Shown: piece after piece, positions 2,435 through 43,987 of the stretch
How positions within the stretch are numbered: position 1 is the first letter of the stretch
How the letters are laid out: each line of letters opens with the position of its first letter
NCBI GenBank assembly: GCA_019694955.1
Contig: JAIBAX010000037.1
Span: 1 to 43,987 of the forward strand
Direction: 5' to 3'
Length of the DNA stretch: 43,987 nt
From: Chitinophagales bacterium
GTDB taxonomy: Bacteria > Bacteroidota > Bacteroidia > Chitinophagales > JADIYW01
Notes under the pieces: model-generated
What the model was told of the DNA's origin: nothing
The model's input: the letters and a program-made list of their open reading frames with translations, nothing else
Databases searched by the model: none
Position numbers and translations under genes: made by a program

Positions 2435-3895
2435 ATGAAGAAATTAGATAATCATTTTGATGTAATCATCATGGGTGCCGGACTCTCAGGTATCGGCGCA
2501 GCTTGTCACCTGAAACGTCAATGCCCCGATAAAACATTCGCCATCTTAGAAGCCCGAAGCAGCATGGGAGGCACTTGGGATTTGTTTCGCTATCCCGGCA
2601 TACGCTCTGATTCTGACATGTACACCTTAGGATATAATTTCAAACCTTGGACAAATCCTAAGAGCATTGCCGATGGTCCAGATATTTTGAATTATATAAA
2701 AGAAACTGCCAATGAGTATCGCATAGAATCAAGTATTCGGTATGAAACAAAAGTCAAAGAAGCACATTGGGACAGCAGCAGTAATACATGGACAATAAAA
2801 TGTGAACATGTAAAAACAAAGAAAGAAGTTACCTACACCTGCCATTACCTACATTCCTGCTTAGGCTATTATAAGTATGAAAATGGATTTACGCCAGATT
2901 TTAAAGGCAAGGAAAAGTATAAAGGCACCATCATCCATCCACAATTGTGGCCGGAAGATCTGGATTATACAGATAAAGAAGTTCTTGTAATCGGTAGTGG
3001 TGCAACGGCGGTGACCTTGGTACCTGCCATGACAGACAAGGCTAAGCATGTGACCATGCTGCAGCGCTCTCCAACTTATGTTGTAAGCGTACCCAATAAA
3101 AGTCTATTTCCTAAGAAATTGAATGAACTGTTGCCGGATAATATTATGTATAATATCAATAGGACTGCACATGTGGGCATTACCATTTTGCAATATTCCT
3201 TGAGTCGTAACCAACCCAATATGATGAAAAATTTCTTCATCAATAATGCAAAAAAACAACTCCCTTCCGACTATGATATTCAAACTCATTTCACACCGAA
3301 ATACCAACCTTGGGACGAAAGATTGTGTGCCGTACCTAATGGCGATTTATTTAAAGCCATCAAGAAAGGGAAAGCCAGTATTGTCACTGATCAGATTGAC
3401 ACTTTTACAAAAGATGGCGTTCTATTAAAATCAGGTAAGGAACTTAAAGCCGACATCATCATCACTGCCACCGGATTGGAGGTACAAATGTTGGGTGGCA
3501 TCAAAGCATTTATAGATGGAGAGGCATATAATCCCAAAGAAGCCATCATCTACAAAGGAATGATGATTAAAGATGTACCTAATTTTGTTTTCGTATTTGG
3601 ATATACGAATGCATCTTGGACATTGCGTGCTGATTTGGTATCTACCTATTTCTGCCGATTAATCAACGAAACGGAAAAGAACGGCAAGAAAACGTTTGTT
3701 GCCAAGAGTGCTAAAAAGATCGAACCAAAACCAATGTTCGATTTCCAACCGGGCTATATAAAACGTGCCATGGAAGCCGGAATACTGCCCTCGCAAGGCG
3801 CCAAAGAACCTTGGACACTCAAGCAAAATTATTTAGTGGATTTAGTGGAAATGAATTTCGGCAAACTAAAAGATGGCTACATGAAGTTCTACTAA
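2435..3895 (+). CDS. Flavin-containing monooxygenase, Baeyer-Villiger type
   Basis: A 486-residue FAD/NADPH monooxygenase. The first dinucleotide fold carries GAGLSG (14-19), followed by GGTWDLFRYPGIRSDSD (45-61), typical of Baeyer-Villiger enzymes and relatives. The BVMO fingerprint FxGxxxHxxxWP appears at 162-173 as Y-K-G-T-I-I-H-P-Q-L-W-P, with Tyr for the first Phe. The second (NADPH) nucleotide motif GSGATA is at 187-192. The C-terminal half holds ITATGLEV, the usual ATG motif. Such enzymes insert oxygen next to a ketone to give an ester or lactone, or oxidise S/N. Esterase and epoxide-hydrolase genes are close by. The substrate cannot be read from sequence. Confidence 0.9.
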   Translation: MKKLDNHFDVIIMGAGLSGIGAACHLKRQCPDKTFAILEARSSMGGTWDLFRYPGIRSDSDMYTLGYNFKPWTNPKSIADGPDILNYIKETANEYRIESSIRYETKVKEAHWDSSSNTWTIKCEHVKTKKEVTYTCHYLHSCLGYYKYENGFTPDFKGKEKYKGTIIHPQLWPEDLDYTDKEVLVIGSGATAVTLVPAMTDKAKHVTMLQRSPTYVVSVPNKSLFPKKLNELLPDNIMYNINRTAHVGITILQYSLSRNQPNMMKNFFINNAKKQLPSDYDIQTHFTPKYQPWDERLCAVPNGDLFKAIKKGKASIVTDQIDTFTKDGVLLKSGKELKADIIITATGLEVQMLGGIKAFIDGEAYNPKEAIIYKGMMIKDVPNFVFVFGYTNASWTLRADLVSTYFCRLINETEKNGKKTFVAKSAKKIEPKPMFDFQPGYIKRAMEAGILPSQGAKEPWTLKQNYLVDLVEMNFGKLKDGYMKFY

Positions 3896-3967
3896 CCAAA
3901 CATCGGCATGGGAAGAAAATGTGATTCATTTGAATGATTGTAAAATTCTATTGGATGATTCTTGTAT

Positions 3968-4005
3968 CACAAAGTTTCTCAAAGAAGGCACTAAGAACAC
4001 AAAGG
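3968..4005. repeat. CACAAAG-rich degenerate repeat
   Basis: A stretch with spaced CACAAAG/TCAAAGAAGG/ACACAAAGG units, of the same kind as the clearer block at 38406-38450 on the opposite strand. Such CACAAAG-periodic blocks recur in many Bacteroidota intergenic regions (established impression); no function is known. Confidence 0.4.
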
Positions 4006-4086
4006 CTTCGACACGAGCAAATATTTTATCAATGGATCTTCTAACAAAACTCGAAATTCAAATTTAAAAACTTGAGATTAAGACTA

Positions 4087-7939: not shown

Positions 7940-8014
7940 CCACTCGTGTTCTCGTGAAGACACGAGAACAGGGAATTGGATTTTACTAATGGACTATTTC
8001 ATAATTACTTTTTG
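7938..8014. repeat. Palindromic interspersed element, copy 1
   Basis: The core is a perfect 10-bp stem, TGTTCTCGTG (7947-7956), loop AAGA, CACGAGAACA (7961-7970), followed by AGGGAATTG, TTTTACTAATGGACTATTT and ATAATTACTTTT. The same order recurs at 13816-13902 and, degraded, at 35412-35478. It lies between divergent start codons, so it cannot simply be a terminator. No ORF. Confidence 0.85.
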
Positions 8015-36837: not shown

Positions 36838-38163
36838 TTAATCGTTTAATTCAGCTACCCAATTTAACCTGTCTTGCGGGGAAAACTGCCAAGGTGCTTG
36901 ATTATTTTCTAGGTTGGAGAAGATGGTGTTCCACTCGCTTGGAGAATCACTCTGCTCCATGATGAGGTTTCTACGCAATTCCAAGATGATACTTAATGGA
37001 CTGATATTCACCGGACATTCTTCCACACATGCATTGCAAGTGGTACACGCCCTGAGTTCTTCTTTCGTGATATAATCACCTAATAATGTTTTATTATCTG
37101 TAAATTCCGGACCGTGTTCTTTTTTGCCTTTGGCGATGTCTTCCATTCTATCGCGAGTATCCATCATTATCTTACGGGGCGATAACTTCTTCCCAGTAAG
37201 GTTCGCCGGACAAGCGGCAGTACATCTACCACATTCGGTACAGGTATAGGCATCTAAAAGATTCTTCCATGATAAGTCTGTCACGTCCTTTGCACCGAAA
37301 TACATAGGTTCCTCTCCTTCTTCTGTTTGCGCACCACCAAACATACTCGCCACTTCTTTTTGGATGTTCGGCATATTCTTCATTTCTCCTTTTGGCTCCG
37401 GACGCGAAAAATAAGTATTTGGAAAAGCCAACGCAATATGCAAATGCTTAGAATATGGCAGATAGTTCATGAACACAAATACCATACAAATATGTCCCCA
37501 CCAGCCCAATCTTTCAATAAAATGTATCGCTCCCAATGGCAACCCAGAAAGTGCCTTCCCTACTATACTGCTCAATATGAAATGACCTGTTTGCTCGTGT
37601 TCTCCCACTATTTGTAGCGCTTTATCGCCGCCATTCATACAGAAAATGAAGAAAATCAATAATATCTCAAAGATGAGAATTTGATTGGCATCACGCATCG
37701 GCCAGCCTTTCAATTCGGCTTTGGTGAAACGTGGTAATTTCAATAAATTTCTCCTATATAAGAATGCTAATGTTACAAAGAACGTAAGCAGCGATAGGAT
37801 TTCAATCATATTGATAACCAACGTGTATAGGCTTCCAAGAAAATTACCTTCAAAAAGACCGAAGTACAAAATCCTATGTGAACCTGTAAACCCATCTATA
37901 AATATTTCGAGTAATTCTATCTGTGTAATACAAAAAGAAATATAAATGACGAGGTGCAACAACGCTGCCACCGGGCGCTTGAACATCTTTTGCTGACCGA
38001 AGGCAACCAGCAACATCTGTTTCCAACGGAAGGAACTGTCGGAAGAAATTTCCTCCTTTCGTCCCATCATGATATTGTTGTAAATCTCTCTTACTTTTTT
38101 AAGGAAAAAGAAAAATGACCCTCCCGTTAATGCCGCAAAAATGATTATTTGCACTATTTTCAT
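36838..38163 (-). CDS. Membrane-bound iron-sulfur oxidoreductase (Hdr-like, cytochrome b-type N-terminus)
   Basis: 441 residues. About five hydrophobic helices (residues 3-20, 60-85, 105-135, 160-180, 210-235) contain His residues that could bind haem b (H67, H191, H206 region), as in NarI-like membrane subunits. The C-terminal third has two [4Fe-4S] ferredoxin motifs: C-T-E-C-G-R-C-T-A-A-C-P and C-T-T-C-N-A-C-V-E-E-C-P. It should pass electrons between a soluble donor and the quinone pool, with the CCG-domain partner encoded next. A degenerate -7 element (TATTTTCG, minus strand, 38194-38187) lies 23 nt upstream of the ATG. Confidence 0.88.
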   Translation of the reverse strand: MKIVQIIIFAALTGGSFFFFLKKVREIYNNIMMGRKEEISSDSSFRWKQMLLVAFGQQKMFKRPVAALLHLVIYISFCITQIELLEIFIDGFTGSHRILYFGLFEGNFLGSLYTLVINMIEILSLLTFFVTLAFLYRRNLLKLPRFTKAELKGWPMRDANQILIFEILLIFFIFCMNGGDKALQIVGEHEQTGHFILSSIVGKALSGLPLGAIHFIERLGWWGHICMVFVFMNYLPYSKHLHIALAFPNTYFSRPEPKGEMKNMPNIQKEVASMFGGAQTEEGEEPMYFGAKDVTDLSWKNLLDAYTCTECGRCTAACPANLTGKKLSPRKIMMDTRDRMEDIAKGKKEHGPEFTDNKTLLGDYITKEELRACTTCNACVEECPVNISPLSIILELRRNLIMEQSDSPSEWNTIFSNLENNQAPWQFSPQDRLNWVAELND

Positions 38164-38251
38164 AATGTTTGATTTATTCCAAAAGACGAAAATACAGTAT
38201 TCTAAACTTTTTTAAAACAAATCATATAAAGGAAAGATTAAATTAGCACAG

Positions 38252-38347
38252 AAATGTGGAGATTTGGGGATGTGGAGATGTGGGAATTTGGGGATGTGGA
38301 GATGTGGAGATGTGGAGATGTGGGAATTTGGGGATGCGGAGATTTGG
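38252..38347. repeat. Minisatellite: twelve 8-bp units, consensus RRATKYGG
   Basis: Exactly 96 bp in perfect register: AAATGTGG, AGATTTGG, GGATGTGG, AGATGTGG, GAATTTGG, GGATGTGG, AGATGTGG three times, GAATTTGG, GGATGCGG, AGATTTGG. All units end in GG, so the plus strand is strongly G-biased. Eight is not a multiple of three, so unit changes would shift any reading frame. Confidence 0.95.
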
Positions 38348-38405
38348 CGTTGGTGTTTTTTGTGTTTCTCCTGGTGAGCTTGTCCCGATGTGTCGGGAGT
38401 CCACA

Positions 38406-38450
38406 GTCTTCTTGGTATTCTTTGTGTACCTCTTTGTGAACTTTGTGGTT
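38406..38450. repeat. CTTTGTG-periodic repeat block
   Basis: Three CTTTGTG units, spaced 12 and 10 bp apart, within TATTCTTTGTG, TACCTCTTTGTG, AACTTTGTGG. The reverse strand reads as CACAAAG units, like 3968-4005. It often follows minisatellites of the preceding type in Bacteroidota (impression). Confidence 0.6.
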
Positions 38451-38519
38451 AAAAATGTTCACGGCTGAATATTTGAACTACAAAATTCTAAAAACTTATT
38501 ACTAAAACCTGCCACTTAC

Positions 38520-38550
38520 TTGCAATGCACGCATTTGTTTTTTAACTTTG
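38520..38550 (+). promoter_or_regulatory. Promoter of the fatty-acid-hydroxylase-family gene
   Basis: TTG (38520-38522), 20-nt spacer, TAACTTTG (38543-38550), 16 nt before the ATG at 38567. Confidence 0.7.
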
Positions 38551-38566
38551 AATTAAAATTCGTTTT

Positions 38567-39844
38567 ATGGAGTTGTACGGAAAGATATTACTGATTGCGA
38601 TGCCTTGTTTTGTAGTGCTCATTCTTATCGAAATGGGTATTGGTCTCTTGAAGGGTGATACAATCAACCTGATGGACAGTATCTCCAGTTTGTTTTCTGG
38701 GATGACCAATATTTTGAAAGATACTTTGGGACTTACCATTACGGTTTTGTCATATCCATTTTTGTTGAGCCACCTTGCTTTGTTTCAATGGAGCGCAGAA
38801 AATGTAGTCTTTACCTATCTGCTTTGCTTCATAATCATGGATTTTGGTGGGTATTGGTATCACCGCATTTCTCATGAAATCAATTACTTTTGGAATATCC
38901 ATATCATCCATCACAGCAGTGAGGAGTATAATCTCCCATGTGCTTTGCGGCAACAGTTTGCCGTTTTCACCAATATTCTCTCCTTGCTGATTTATGGTAT
39001 TTTAATGGCGTTGATAGGTATTCCTACCGAGGTATATGCTATTGTTGCACCCATACATTTATTTGCTCAGTTTTGGTACCATACCAAATACATCAAACGA
39101 TTGGGCATTTTAGAGAAAATCATTGTCACTCCTTCGCACCACCGTGTGCATCACGCCATGAATGATATCTATTTAGACAAAAATTATAGCCAGATTTTCA
39201 TCATTTGGGATAAGCTTTTTGGCACTTTTCAGGAAGAATTGGAGACCGTTCCGCCTGTATATGGTGTAAAGCGTCCAGTGAGGACATGGAATCCATTTTT
39301 AATCAATTTCCAACATTTTTACCTCATGTTGCACGATGCTGTTAAAACGAGTGACTGGAAAGATAAATTCTTGTTGTGGTTCAAGCCGACTGGTTACCGC
39401 CCTAAGGATATGGAAGAAAAATATCCGGTTTACTATATCAAGGATGTTCAGCATTTTGAAAAATACAATCCCAACTACTCACCCTTGTTTAAGGCATGGA
39501 GTGAAATTCAAATGACCTCCATCTTTTTATTGATGAGTTTCTTGTTTTATAGCTTTGGCAATCTCCATGCGCAGGAGGAATTGCATTATGGTCTCTTTAT
39601 ACTATTCTCCATCTTCTCATTTTCCTCTTTAATGGACAAAAAATTCTATGGATGGGTATTGGAAATTGTAAAAACGCTGTGGGCAATGATTATCTTATTC
39701 CAAACTAAAGACTGGTTTCAGGTGAACAATTCTATTTCCAATGGATCTACTATTCTTGGAGTATTCATGCTAGTATCGTTCCTTACAAATAGTTTCTTCT
39801 ATTTTAAAGAATTAAAAGAAACTCGTATGGTGGCTTCTTCCTAA
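38567..39844 (+). CDS. Fatty acid hydroxylase / sterol desaturase family, AGMO-like
   Basis: A 425-residue membrane di-iron enzyme. The His clusters are complete: H99-R-I-S-H103, H112-I-I-H-H116 and H192-R-V-H-H196. Hydrophobic segments occur at about 7-28, 55-75, 80-98, 133-165, and again near 325-400. The length and the layout, His core in the first half and a helical C-terminal membrane part, resemble alkylglycerol monooxygenase (TMEM195-like) more than short desaturases. Such enzymes cleave ether lipids using tetrahydropterin; other relatives hydroxylate lipid chains. Substrate unproven. Convergent with the acyltransferase gene, stops overlapping by 4 bp. Confidence 0.85.
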   Translation: MELYGKILLIAMPCFVVLILIEMGIGLLKGDTINLMDSISSLFSGMTNILKDTLGLTITVLSYPFLLSHLALFQWSAENVVFTYLLCFIIMDFGGYWYHRISHEINYFWNIHIIHHSSEEYNLPCALRQQFAVFTNILSLLIYGILMALIGIPTEVYAIVAPIHLFAQFWYHTKYIKRLGILEKIIVTPSHHRVHHAMNDIYLDKNYSQIFIIWDKLFGTFQEELETVPPVYGVKRPVRTWNPFLINFQHFYLMLHDAVKTSDWKDKFLLWFKPTGYRPKDMEEKYPVYYIKDVQHFEKYNPNYSPLFKAWSEIQMTSIFLLMSFLFYSFGNLHAQEELHYGLFILFSIFSFSSLMDKKFYGWVLEIVKTLWAMIILFQTKDWFQVNNSISNGSTILGVFMLVSFLTNSFFYFKELKETRMVASS

Positions 39845-41049
39845 TAATGTTCAGGCACACCGGGGTTTATCTGAATGGACGGAATCGGTTTTCGTTTGTA
39901 TTCAAGGAAGAATCTTTCAAAGTAATGATAGGAGAAATATGCTAAAGCAAACGTTAACATAAAGGATATTATAAAGGAAAGCAAGGCAAATGTGTGACCA
40001 TTTACTTCCGGGAATAGTTTCTTCAAGAACCATATAATGCTTACTATGGTGTAATTATGGAACATATAGAATCCGTAGGAAACCTTACCTCCTTGTTGTA
40101 AAATTGGGTGTTTTAAACTAAAAATGCATGTTTCCTGACGGATTGCATTTAGGATAATGACTATAAACAAAATGCCATATATCTCATGACCAACAAAGGG
40201 CAGTACATAACCTATTGTAAGAAATATTCCTACCAATGTAAGTGCAACTAATTGAGTTGATTTATAATACAACCATTGTGGCACCTTACCGCTTATAAAA
40301 TAATATGCCCCCAATGCACCTATTGCCATACATGAAATGCGGTGCATGTATAACAAATGTAAAAAAACTGTCAGTAGCTTGGCTAGACTCTTTATACCAA
40401 TACTTTGCAATACTAAAATTGATATTCCAAGGACAAGATGCATCGTCATATATATAACCAATATCCTTAAAATAGTTCGTTTAATATCCCTTGATTTCTT
40501 CATCAACCTTGGCCAAAAAAGGTAAAAATACTCCTCCACACCTATACTCCAAGCTTGTGTTAACGGATACATTTCAGAAAGTGATGTTAATAGTTGCGGT
40601 AAAAAAAGAAACATTAACAATATCTCTGTGGGCTTAGAAATGCGGTCATGAAGATGATAGCTTGAAAGGTAAGGATTGTCATTGGGGTTGTAAAAAATGT
40701 GAAATATTGGAATTTGATTCAATACAAAATATACTACAACTATCATAAGGAAGTACAGCGGCCAAATACGCAACACTCTCTTTTTAATAAAGGAGACATA
40801 ATTTATATCTTTTGTCCGTTCCTTTTCTGAAAGCAAGATAAACGTAATTAGAAATCCCGACAACACAAAAAAGGCTGTGACAGATACCGCACCCAATTCT
40901 TTAAATTGTATATTCTCTGCTACATAGCAAATGTCAAATGCCTGTAGCATGACTACAAAGTGGCTCAAGAATACCATGGCTGCAAAGATAAATCTCAGCC
41001 CATCCAAGTTTTCAAAATACGTCTTCTCTCCTAATTGTATATTTCTCAT
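39841..41049 (-). CDS. OafA/YrhL-type acyltransferase, family 3
   Basis: 402 residues with about ten membrane helices. The family-3 signature is at the N-terminus: Y-F-E-N-L-D-G-L-R-F-I-F-A-A-M-V-F-L-S-H-F (11-31), with the conserved Arg and His, then A-V-S-V-T-A-F-F-V-L-S-G-F-L-I-T (about 54-69) and K-K-R-V-L-R-I-W-P-L-Y-F (about 88-99). These inner-membrane enzymes O-acylate cell-surface sugars such as LPS O-antigen or exopolysaccharide. No glycan-synthesis genes adjoin it, so the acceptor is unknown. A 9-bp inverted repeat lies 2 bp upstream of its start codon. Confidence 0.92.
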   Translation of the reverse strand: MRNIQLGEKTYFENLDGLRFIFAAMVFLSHFVVMLQAFDICYVAENIQFKELGAVSVTAFFVLSGFLITFILLSEKERTKDINYVSFIKKRVLRIWPLYFLMIVVVYFVLNQIPIFHIFYNPNDNPYLSSYHLHDRISKPTEILLMFLFLPQLLTSLSEMYPLTQAWSIGVEEYFYLFWPRLMKKSRDIKRTILRILVIYMTMHLVLGISILVLQSIGIKSLAKLLTVFLHLLYMHRISCMAIGALGAYYFISGKVPQWLYYKSTQLVALTLVGIFLTIGYVLPFVGHEIYGILFIVIILNAIRQETCIFSLKHPILQQGGKVSYGFYMFHNYTIVSIIWFLKKLFPEVNGHTFALLSFIISFMLTFALAYFSYHYFERFFLEYKRKPIPSIQINPGVPEHY

Positions 41050-41051
41050 TT

Positions 41052-41079
41052 GTAACAGATTTTTGAAATCATCTGTTAC
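41052..41079. promoter_or_regulatory. Inverted repeat GTAACAGAT / ATCTGTTAC at the acyltransferase start
   Basis: A perfect 9-bp inverted repeat (41052-41060 and 41071-41079) with a 10-nt centre, ending 2 bp upstream of the ATG at 41049 (minus strand). It covers the expected ribosome-binding region. It could be an mRNA hairpin or an operator. Confidence 0.6.
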
Positions 41080-41083
41080 CCCC

Positions 41084-41358
41084 GTTTAACTCAGGATAAC
41101 CATTAGAAATTTACTGAAAGAAAATTCTAATTCATATCTATTTCTGTACTCATTTTTCTGTCCTCAACGTAGCTTTTACTACGTCTGCGGGAGAAAAATT
41201 CCGTGCCTCATAGCTATTTTGTATAATTTCCTTTCGCTACAAAGTCTAATGCTTATCCAGAGTTTATTATTTCAAAAGTATGTTATATTATTTCTTTTTA
41301 CAAAGACATTTTTTTGTTAAAATCGGATAAAAATTATGATAATGATTTATATATATTG
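41084..41358. repeat. 275-bp interspersed repeat, copy 1
   Basis: Aligns over its whole length, roughly 80% or more by eye, with 43684-43957 in the same orientation. The strongest block (about 41100-41215) contains an ACGTAG-N6-CTACGT hairpin. Its end covers the last codons and stop of the TauE/SafE gene. It otherwise fills the gap between that gene and the acyltransferase gene. No ORF is convincing. Confidence 0.88.
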
Positions 41359-42203
41359 TATATAGATGTAATTATAATGAGAACGCCTACCATCCTTAAA
41401 AGTGTTGTAGGTTTAAAGAATTTGATAATATACGCTCCAATAGGTGCTGCCACTACTCCGCCAATAATTAATCCCAAAATTGGTTTCCAACTCTCTATTC
41501 CGACAAAGAACAAAAATACGCCTGTACTGATAAATGTTACAAAAAACTCAACAGTATTAACGGTGCCAATTATTTCTCGCGGAGAATCAGTTTTACTGAT
41601 AAGGTTAGAAGTAACGATAGGTCCCCAACCGCCACCACCGATAGCATCTAAAAATGAACCAAAAAAACCTAGCACAGGTGCATATTTGAGTGCATTTTCC
41701 TTTGGAACGATGGTTCTAAAACTTTTTACCAACAAGACTATCCCTAAAATTAAGAGGTATGCAGAAATATAAGGCTTGATGACCTTGCCGTCTACATAAT
41801 TGGACAAAATAACTGCGCCGAGAAAAGAACCAATGATTCCTGTAAAAAATAATTTGACGAAAAGTTTCTTATTGATATTCTTCATGGCGATATGACTCAA
41901 TCCTGAAACTCCGGTAGTAAATACTTCTGCGGTATGGACACTTGCCGAAACAACAGCAGGTGGTAATCCGAAGCCCAACAATAAGGAGGAACAGCTAACG
42001 CCATACGCCATTCCCAAAGCACCGTCAATGATTTGCGCCACAAATCCGGCGACAATAAATGTTATGAAAGTCCTGTCCAATGAAAATGTTTTTAATGATG
42101 GGTCTGGTGAATGTAATACTGACCAAATCAGAAACCCTAACACACTCAATTTCAGCACTATGATAACTGCTGCAATAATTTTTAAATTTACTTTGTTCTC
42201 CAT
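41334..42203 (-). CDS. TauE/SafE-family sulfite/organosulfonate permease
   Basis: A 289-residue inner-membrane protein with about eight helices. The two related halves each carry the family's Gly-rich motif: G-F-V-A-Q-I-I-D-G-A-L-G-M-A-Y-G (about 53-68) and G-F-F-G-S-F-L-D-A-I-G-G-G-G-W-G-P (about 175-191). The family moves sulfite, sulfoacetate and similar anions. It is 20 bp downstream of the porin gene, so inner- and outer-membrane transport are probably co-expressed. Its last codons lie within the 275-bp repeat, so the C-terminus may have been reshaped. Confidence 0.92.
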   Translation of the reverse strand: MENKVNLKIIAAVIIVLKLSVLGFLIWSVLHSPDPSLKTFSLDRTFITFIVAGFVAQIIDGALGMAYGVSCSSLLLGFGLPPAVVSASVHTAEVFTTGVSGLSHIAMKNINKKLFVKLFFTGIIGSFLGAVILSNYVDGKVIKPYISAYLLILGIVLLVKSFRTIVPKENALKYAPVLGFFGSFLDAIGGGGWGPIVTSNLISKTDSPREIIGTVNTVEFFVTFISTGVFLFFVGIESWKPILGLIIGGVVAAPIGAYIIKFFKPTTLLRMVGVLIIITSIYNIYKSLS

Positions 42204-42223
42204 TTTTGCAATATTTTTAAAAA

Positions 42224-43546
42224 TTAATCTTGTTTTTTGTACCTAAAAAATTCAGGGGTAATGGTTATCTGAACATAGGCCCATTGGTTGAACTTGTTGG
42301 TGACGGTATTTTTAACATACTCTAACCCTTCTGTTGGAAGTAAGAAAGAATAGCCTACCTCCAAGCCTATGATTTTATGTGGTTGATATTTGAATAGAAT
42401 GTCATTCTCAAAACCAAGTCCTTTGTCTAATTTCTCTCCTTTGTTAAACAAGTTATGGTGAGAACTGAAGTAGTGTATATTCTCACTTATAGAGATTTTA
42501 TCGTTGATTTTGTAATCAATAAATAGATACGGATTGAGTAACCCCCCACTTTTGGTGTCGCCCGGGAACCTGGTGAATTGGTCCATGAAGCCATTGAATC
42601 TGTGGGCGACACCGTACAAAGGAACAAATGAGTTAAACTTCTTATTAGTGGTATCTTCAACATCCTGTCCACTCAAAAACTCACCACCAATGCGGATCGT
42701 TGTATTTTTCAAAGCCGTAATCTTAAACTCCGGTTGTGCATACCATGCCAATATCTTTTGGTCTGCGGTCGTTTTTCCATATTGTATGTAGCTGTTTAAG
42801 GTAAGGTAGTATCCTTCTTTCTCCCACTCTATCCTACCACCTGTGGTATAGCGCATCTTCAATTTTTTCTTTTGATCTGCAACGGTAGACTCAAAACCAT
42901 CTCCTGCATGTAACAAAAACAAACTAAATCCCTTCGCATATTTCTGTTTATAACCAAAGATATTCAATAGCTTATAGTCTTCCGAAGAGACATCCTTCGG
43001 TGTATAACCTGAGCCGAAGAAATTCTCTGCCGATTGATTATAGGCTATAATGGCACTTGCATCTAATTTCTTATTTCCATTCTTATAATTAAACCTTAAT
43101 GCATCATGGCTTCTTGCCCAAACACGCCAGTCATTTTGTGCAAATAGGCGTTGATTATCATACATGATACGCTGGCGACCCAACTTTACAGAAAAGCCTT
43201 TCTTTAAAGGAACTTCTGCGTAACCTTCAAACAGATTAATGGAACCACCTCTATACTGTCCGCCATACTCCCCCCATACACGTGCATCCTGAATAGAAAT
43301 ATATGCGTCCACATATTTGGATTTAAAATCTAAGTTTAACCTAGTTCTGTTGTTTACAAAAATAGAAGGAGTCGTATCATCCGGAACCAATGTTCTGTAA
43401 CCATTCCTCACCTCGAATCGGGCCTTGAGTTCGGCACTTATGGCGAATTCTGTCGGTTTTACCACCTTGGTGGTATCCTGAGCATGTAATGAATTGAAGG
43501 TAAAAACACCTGTCAACCAAACAAAAAATAATATATACTTTTTCAT
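42224..43546 (-). CDS. Outer-membrane beta-barrel porin, alginate-export-like
   Basis: 440 residues from the ATG at 43546. The longer frame to 43675 runs through the promoter and is rejected; M-K-K-Y-I-L-F-F begins a clear signal peptide (cleavage near L-H-A-Q). The rest is amphipathic strands with aromatic girdles, and motifs K-L-G-R-Q-R-I-M-Y-D-N-Q-R-L-F-A and G-G-R-I-E-W typical of Alginate_exp-domain porins. It ends in an aromatic-containing strand (I-T-P-E-F-F-R-Y). Co-transcribed with the TauE/SafE permease, so an anion or organosulfonate channel is possible; alginate itself has no support here. Confidence 0.87.
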   Translation of the reverse strand: MKKYILFFVWLTGVFTFNSLHAQDTTKVVKPTEFAISAELKARFEVRNGYRTLVPDDTTPSIFVNNRTRLNLDFKSKYVDAYISIQDARVWGEYGGQYRGGSINLFEGYAEVPLKKGFSVKLGRQRIMYDNQRLFAQNDWRVWARSHDALRFNYKNGNKKLDASAIIAYNQSAENFFGSGYTPKDVSSEDYKLLNIFGYKQKYAKGFSLFLLHAGDGFESTVADQKKKLKMRYTTGGRIEWEKEGYYLTLNSYIQYGKTTADQKILAWYAQPEFKITALKNTTIRIGGEFLSGQDVEDTTNKKFNSFVPLYGVAHRFNGFMDQFTRFPGDTKSGGLLNPYLFIDYKINDKISISENIHYFSSHHNLFNKGEKLDKGLGFENDILFKYQPHKIIGLEVGYSFLLPTEGLEYVKNTVTNKFNQWAYVQITITPEFFRYKKQD

Positions 43547-43566
43547 AGGCAAAAAATTTAATGAGA

Positions 43567-43574
43567 CAAACTTA
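43567..43574 (-). promoter_or_regulatory. -7 element TAAGTTTG of the porin-TauE operon
   Basis: Exact TAnnTTTG match on the minus strand (43574-43567), 20 nt before the ATG at 43546. No TTG at -33; the spacer region is very AT-rich. Confidence 0.55.
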
Positions 43575-43683
43575 TCTATTAGTCGATATATTTTATAGAG
43601 TATATATGTTTGATAATATTTTAGTAATATTAAACCTCGGAGGTTGAATGTGTACTTTATAAACTTAAGTGCCAATCAGTTGG

Positions 43684-43957
43684 GTTTTAACTCAGTATCA
43701 GCATTAGAAATTTACTGGAAGAAAATTCTACTTCATATCTATTTCTGTATTCATTTTTCTATCTTCAACGTAGTTATTACTACGTCTGTGGGAGAAAAAT
43801 TCCGTGCCTCATAGCTACTTTGTAAATTCCTTTTGTCACAAAGTCCAACACTTATTCTTGGTTTATTATTTCAATGTATACTCTAAAATTTTCTTTAGAC
43901 AAAGACAATATTTTGTTAAAATCGGATAAAAACTATAAGAATGATTTATATGTATTG
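43684..43957. repeat. 275-bp interspersed repeat, copy 2
   Basis: Same orientation as 41084-41358. Conserved landmarks in order: CATTAGAAATTTACT, AAGAAAATTCTA, TTCATATCTATTTCTGTA, ACGTAG hairpin, GGGAGAAAAATTCCGTGCC, TTTATTATTTCAA, TTGTTAAAATCGGATAAAAA. The two copies bracket exactly the porin and permease genes. Confidence 0.88.
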
Positions 43958-43987
43958 GAATTCAAATGTTTTTTTTAAATTGTTGAT

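Follow-up and report, generated by a model that had tools for sequence, protein, structure and literature searches.

Direct repeats around a porin–permease operon of a Chitinophagales bacterium are copies of a dispersed miniature transposable element with IS1380-like ends

Near the end of contig JAIBAX010000037.1 of a Chitinophagales bacterium (assembly GCA_019694955.1), two direct repeats of about 275 bp enclose a gene for a TauE/SafE permease, a gene for an Alginate_exp-type outer-membrane protein (the porin) and the upstream region of this operon. Do these repeats form a unit with the operon, or are they part of something larger? The 43,987 nucleotides of the contig, the whole stretch of DNA analyzed here, are referred to as the window. 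An earlier note on this DNA had described same-orientation repeats around exactly the two genes and the upstream region, and they are indeed present, on the same strand, at 41085–41358 (copy 1) and 43686–43957 (copy 2), with 85% identity (blastn, E 1.4e-82). Our analysis revealed that, with very little room for doubt, they are copies of a non-autonomous transposable element of ~173 bp, a miniature inverted-repeat transposable element (MITE). The repeats are not specific to the operon, but are ordinary members of a scattered family. We hold with good confidence the explanation as a whole, in which the MITE would be mobilized by an IS1380-type transposase and the pair would have arisen by one-sided copying.

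Each repeat is a composite of a dispersed element of 171–173 bp (41090–41262, 173 bp, in copy 1; 43691–43861, 171 bp, in copy 2; both on the + strand and delimited by the alignment of copies) and ~96 bp of right flank. With copy 2 as the query, the source genome (103 contigs, 4.14 Mb) gave at least 43 matches on 27 contigs, corresponding to at least 40 places after the merging of pieces; these are lower bounds, as 40 of 98 candidates were scored. All of the matches end by query position 189, with the exception of both copies in the window and a weak partial match (query 202–245). The right flank is common to the two window places, with a weak 39–45 bp match to part of it at C84:54992 (80% over query 202–245 in the genome search with copy 2, 85% over 39 bp in another search).

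Twenty-six copies were aligned together with their flanks. Most are 171–173 bp long (range 167–174), and terminal inverted repeats (TIRs) resembling CCCAGAAWAAGCRTTAGA are present at both ends, for example CCCAGAAAAAGCRTTAGA and CCCAGAATAAGCGTTAGA, or CTCAGGATAACCATTAGA and CTCTGGATAAGCATTAGA in copy 1. With up to three mismatches allowed, the end pattern occurs 49 times forward and 49 times reverse in the genome, against 6 and 6 for a reversed control. The target-site duplications (TSDs) were assessed in 25 copies: L025, whose 5' half is replaced, was excluded from the TSD, arm and structure tests, and L026_6965, which has an arm deletion, from the arm test. Just outside the element, 5-bp TTNAA direct repeats agree at 110 of 125 positions, against 96.3 ± 2.95 with shuffled partners (0 of 20,000 shuffles); the flanking pentamers are identical in 14 of the 25 copies and non-identical in 11, and no enrichment was found in these copies for TSD registers of 4 or 6 bp. 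In copy 1, these direct repeats are TTTAA (41085–41089) and TTTAT (41263–41267, one mismatch). Arm-to-arm matching in the source genome is modest (140/192 against 124.2 ± 4.6 after shuffling, p 0.0008). All 26 aligned copies are intergenic, with no open reading frame (ORF) of at least 100 aa overlapped by more than 30 bp, and their orientation relative to the neighbouring genes is mixed. Moreover, several shorter derivatives keep both ends and lack the middle. The dispersal in many copies, the TIRs, the 5-bp TTNAA duplications and the intergenic location together identify the element as a MITE.

How, then, did two copies come to bracket one operon? For 40 places in 4.1 Mb, the probability that one or more same-strand pairs lie within 2.8 kb by chance is 0.41–0.42. 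Three such pairs were observed, on C15, C35 and C14 (P 0.018 for random placement), and two of the three share flank; this mild clustering of the copies fits local duplication. The proposal that the repeats are an operon-bracketing unit is thus not supported, given the dispersal over 27 of the 103 contigs and the expectation of one close pair by chance, though the three pairs exceed that expectation. Recombination between the repeats could delete the operon, and would be expected to be rare because they are only 85% identical, with a longest exact run of 28 bp.

The operon itself could also be the cargo of a composite transposon, moved as a block by the two MITE copies. In favour of such an arrangement, two complete copies whose ends look functional lie 2.6 kb apart in direct orientation, and the occurrence of the permease is patchy, with homologues (E ≤ 1e-20) in 6 of the 39 other relatives. 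However, the porin was found within ~1.5 kb of none of the six permease homologues (tblastn, E ≤ 1e-3), so that the porin–permease pair does not look like a mobile block, and the shared 96-bp flank is not predicted by a composite transposon. We give this alternative hardly any weight. The upstream neighbour was checked at two of the six homologue loci, and encodes a DUF2490 protein in both.

The two window copies most likely descend from one insertion, since they combine a CTCAG end with a TTTAT right flank, a combination that the other 24 aligned copies lack. The two align in ungapped blocks of 139 nt (91% identity), 52 nt (79%) and 68 nt (88%); in a global alignment, 153 of 178 columns are identical over the MITE and its left target site, and 75 of 96 over the flank. 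Beyond the left terminus and its TSD there is no similarity (3 of 20 identical), while on the right side it runs for 97 bp. There, the flank of copy 1 (41268–41358) extends into the permease gene (41334–42203, minus strand; 289 aa; PF01925, 125 bits) and holds the last ~25 nt of its ORF. The earlier note held that copy 1 supplies the last permease codons. These codons are indeed part of the shared block. However, a 65%-identical homologue from the genome G011 can be aligned with the protein all the way to its C-terminus, so this gene end looks native, and copy 2 carries the duplicate. Because the permease 3' end looks native beside copy 1, copy 1 is probably the source and copy 2 the derived one, with the piece of the permease gene carried to the upstream region of the porin gene (42224–43546, minus strand; 440 aa; PF13372 Alginate_exp, 33.8 bits against a cut-off of 25.2). 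Around the MITE of copy 2 lie its left target site, TTTAA (43686–43690), and, on the right, TTTAT (43862–43866), a copy of the right target duplication of copy 1, followed by the duplicated flank (43867–43957), which resembles 41268–41358 at 83% in blastn and at 88% in the last 68 nt.

In the mechanism that we propose, a first MITE, copy 1, would have inserted downstream of the permease gene, ~70 bp from its stop codon. A later unit, which spanned the MITE from its far to its near terminus and continued through ~96 bp of flank to include the permease 3' end, would then have been duplicated into a TTTAA site in the upstream region of the porin, to become copy 2. A weak alternative end may have been used on one side, as is reported for ISEcp1/ISEc9; one-sided transposition is the least certain step, with the chances for and against it about equal. 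Flanks are shared on one side elsewhere as well. Among 44 copies from other genomes there are eight flank-sharing pairs, all from six copies in G331, in each of which the common flank directly adjoins one end of the element. On the opposite side, seven of the eight pairs are unrelated (3–6 of 20 identical), and L100/L132 is ambiguous (10 of 19). In the source genome, a pair at L029, 1 kb apart, shares the MITE 3' ends and 31 bp of right flank that was found nowhere else in the own-genome sequence examined. This locus (L029:4012–5092), where a DUF5615 gene lies between two truncated MITE copies, provides a second example of flank duplication.

Some observations speak against one-sided copying. 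In G331, several of the copies with a shared flank extend to the edge of their contig. No convincing TSD surrounds the 272-bp moved unit, which has TTTAA on its left and GAATTCAAATG on its right, after 43957, with TTCAA as the nearest fit. The contig also stops 30 bp past the homology (43987), which leaves no further sequence to read on the right of copy 2. The pair could instead have arisen by a tandem (segmental) duplication of the MITE–permease–porin block through ordinary recombination, after which the second operon copy was lost and the MITE and 96 bp were left at the right edge. The same orientation of the copies, the native permease 3' end within the shared block and the over-representation of close same-strand pairs would all agree with such a duplication, and a second copy could lie outside the contig, which stops just beyond. 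However, both places have their left boundary precisely at the MITE terminus, for which a tandem duplication would need a chance breakpoint; the genome has a single permease match at E ≤ 1e-20; and the 30 bp after 43957 do not resemble the permease gene by eye. We therefore consider a tandem duplication unlikely, and favour one-sided copying.

The contig ends 126 bp after the outer terminus of the MITE of copy 2 (43861–43987). In G331, five contigs end inside the IS1380 insertion sequence (IS) described below, four of them at 122–126 bp and the fifth at 136 bp. Such ends would fit an assembly with k=127, and what follows copy 2 on the right may be part of a collapsed repeat; no second near-exact copy was found.

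Which transposase might move the element? The IS1380 family had been presumed beforehand from the features of ISEcp1. In G331, the end pattern lies near several contig edges among the matches listed, and following one of these ends led to a complete IS of 1393 bp (L167:1501–2893), with the ends CCCGGATTATGCATTAGA and CCTGAATTATGCAATAGA (in a longer form, CCCGGATTATGCATTAGAAAA and CCTGAATTATGCAATAGAATT) at TTNAA sites. Its transposase of 449 aa matches the IS1380 model NF033539 with 264 bits (cut-off 180) and PF13701 with 153 bits; a PDB search with it gave no match at E ≤ 0.01. The MITE ends agree with the first end of this IS at 14–16 of 18 bp and with the other end at 11–14 of 18, and among the 18-mers of the window + strand none was as close as 14–16/18 to the first IS end. 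The G331 transposase is 100% identical to that of the metagenome-assembled genome (MAG) Bacteroidetes bacterium OLB9, and homologues with 70–76% identity and similar ends occur in Algoriphagus, Fulvivirga, a Chitinophagales MAG and another Bacteroidetes MAG. In G239, a 21-bp end identical to the G331 IS end is present at 23 places; in the 11 inspected, TTTAA or TTAAA precedes CCCGG in 10, and ATAAA in one. Judged by these sequences, a transposase of the IS1380 family is the likely mover of the element, and would bind its CCCAG...TTAGA ends.

Two points count against this assignment. No match to PF13701, the IS1380 transposase domain, was found in the source genome, in a search that was positive in 3 of 14 control genomes; mobilization in the source genome is therefore deduced from another genome. 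Moreover, the pentamers flanking the L167 IS, TTAAA and TTTAA, are non-identical, and agree only if the IS takes one extra base. A search of the source genome for PF01609 gave one partial match at a contig edge, with ends unlike those of the MITE by eye, and 11 loci with unpaired end-pattern ends showed no obvious adjoining transposase when inspected by eye. The family therefore appears to be an orphan in its own genome, where its source was not detected. Orphan MITEs are known in bacteria, and we did not take the lack of a partner in the same genome as excluding membership of this class.

The element is also a hairpin. The ACGTAG/CTACGT hairpin pointed out in the earlier note was located at 41167–41184 in copy 1, with a helix of eight pairs and double changes in six of them, and at 43768–43785 in copy 2. 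On the larger scale, the consensus of 69 copies (25 from the source genome, 44 from others) folds as one imperfect hairpin over the whole element. Copy 1, as DNA, forms a single hairpin with a folding z of −3.0; copy 2, as RNA of the minus strand, has a z of −3.1, and its own minimum-energy fold is branched rather than a single full-length hairpin. The median z of 25 copies is −4.3 and −4.2 on the two strands (approximate shuffle), and the flank of copy 1 shows no folding (z +1.3). In the 69-copy alignment, in which degraded copies were retained (L102 of G373, L109 of G239 and L032), 86.2% of 4029 cells are paired, against 82.8 ± 0.3 in shuffled and 39–48% in slid controls; in the slid control this count is biased towards the structure, because the aligned sequences themselves supplied the consensus from which the structure was derived. 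Double-change cells number 165, against 83.7 ± 6.7 in shuffled (0 of 500) and 60–98 in slid controls. The number of pairs with a double change, by contrast, counts against covariation (27 against 25–38 slid, a value reached by 16 of 500 shuffles), and many of the double changes distinguish G331 from the source genome and could be single events. RNAalifold on the 69 copies recovered the central hairpin only, and nothing on the reverse strand. The structure-covariation analysis proposed by the earlier note thus gave support in the number of cells but not in the number of pairs. We conclude that the full-length hairpin is conserved, and that the counts support it mostly, not wholly.

Could the repeats then be a regulatory or structured RNA, such as a cassette that serves the porin operon and an acyltransferase gene? 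The hairpin with its partial covariation support across genera and the low folding energy (z about −3, with the medians given above) would be consistent with such an RNA. However, 5-bp TSDs are present, both strands fold equally, as inverted repeats would, the orientation to the neighbouring genes is mixed, and a search of window positions 38000–43987 against Rfam gave no match at E ≤ 1. We regard this alternative as quite improbable. Of the two natures between which the earlier note had left the repeats, a structured RNA or the end of a mobile element, the latter comes closer, in the form of a complete MITE-like element with 5-bp duplications and IS1380-like ends; the hairpin is what stands of the former. 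The palindromic origin of the element explains much of the conservation of the hairpin, and an RNA role is a candidate only. A bolder reading, which we consider doubtful, joins both aspects: a transducing MITE, in which the IS1380-type transposase uses one terminus, skips the other and copies adjacent DNA, including gene ends, to new TTNAA sites, and whose hairpin with its internal loops is selected across genera rather than being a palindromic by-product.

The earlier note had also suggested that further copies be sought in the genome and its relatives. No match at E ≤ 0.001 was found in the 39 other relatives, 12 of them of the same family; the relatives compared (40 drawn for the first search, and the order-wide listing) hold no other genome of the source genus. 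In an order-wide sample of 396 genomes, nine have a match, the source genome included. Diverged copies, full-length or near-full-length, are present in G175, G331, G239 and G373, all of f18, a family of the order other than that of the source genome. G331 has at least 40 matches, 73–86% identical to the query, a lower bound since 40 of 92 candidates were scored. G246 has a match of 24 bp only, and three genomes of genus g121 match only in ~34–44 bp of the central hairpin region, within other short palindromic elements. An exact 24-mer of the core was found in no GTDB contig (a set from which the source or near genomes may be excluded), the exact core pattern in no viral contig, and blastn against a plasmid collection gave no match. 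The family is thus patchy and common to families within one order, which would suit horizontal transfer or repeated loss.

The g121 elements (in G351, G235 and G395: L103, L104, L106, L110, L111, L119, L121, L123, L125, L127, L129 and L131) have a CGTAGCC..GGCTACG hairpin core. The ends of L103, L104, L127 and L131 are IS-like (e.g. ACCCGGATTATTCATGA), and those of the remaining ones ATGAGTCYACTCC-like. Other repeats were observed in the source genome. A second, more diverged MITE-like family with similar ends (CCGAAAATCAGCATTAGAAG...) is represented by L065:3040–3170 and 15 more matches, many with a TTTGTCCACATCCCGATATATCGGG palindrome. Another short palindromic repeat (GTGTTCTCGTG...; GAACAGGGAATTGG) occurs at window positions 7945 and 13833 (0-based, + strand) and in L029, L032, L037, L051 and L064, and adjoins the MITE at some places. 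Short palindromes such as CAACCTCCGAGGTTG / CAACCTCGAGGTTG recur at window 43633–43645 and in L025, L033, L037, L048 and others. On C35, near-identical tandem genes lie 1.5 kb apart (L061:2087–2530 and 3563–4006), apparently a recent local duplication.

Our findings assign an orphan intergenic repeat of several Bacteroidota to a family and to a candidate transposase class, and explain both operon repeats without an operon-specific function. They also offer a testable case of a non-autonomous element that would copy neighbouring DNA as ISEcp1 mobilizes genes. The hairpin, kept over roughly 15–25% divergence, could be used for a structure-based search of further copies. In the open-access literature on MITEs in Bacteroidetes and on IS1380, within the limited coverage of the texts available, no IS1380-linked MITE of Bacteroidota was found, which is weak evidence of novelty.

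How does the element compare with known systems? ISEc9/ISEcp1 of the IS1380 family is reported to have 5-bp direct repeats and to show one-ended transposition with weak right ends, and the end of ISEc9 is printed as ACGTAGAATCTAGG, with the inward reading CCTAGATTC.. (PMC12116815). The window element thus resembles ISEcp1/ISEc9 and the L167 IS in its end sequence, in its 5-bp direct repeats and in the one-sided mobilization of adjacent DNA that we propose for it. It differs from these ISs in its length of 171–173 bp, the lack of a transposase gene and the end-to-end fold. Cardinium, in turn, belongs to the Bacteroidota. Its MITECca01 is likewise a MITE, of ~240 bp, whose parental IS was identified by its ends, but the parent belongs to the IS982 family and resides in the same genome (PMC9769881). 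The ERIC, NEMIS, RUP and MITEPye1 MITEs are similarly short and non-coding and have TIRs (PMC3733652, PMC11578231); for MITEPye1, the resemblance extends to a long stem-loop, an intergenic location and direct repeats. They differ from the window element in size, in sequence and in the family of the partner, MITEPye1 being linked to IS1182. REP/REPIN sequences with their RAYT partners are also dispersed, short intergenic palindromes, but they are shorter (20–40 bp) and linked to IS200/IS605-type transposases (PMC3733652), in contrast to the 5-bp TSDs and the IS1380-type partner of the window element. To conclude, the element represents a new family of a known kind, whose notable details are the apparent one-sided copying of flanks and the conserved full-length hairpin.

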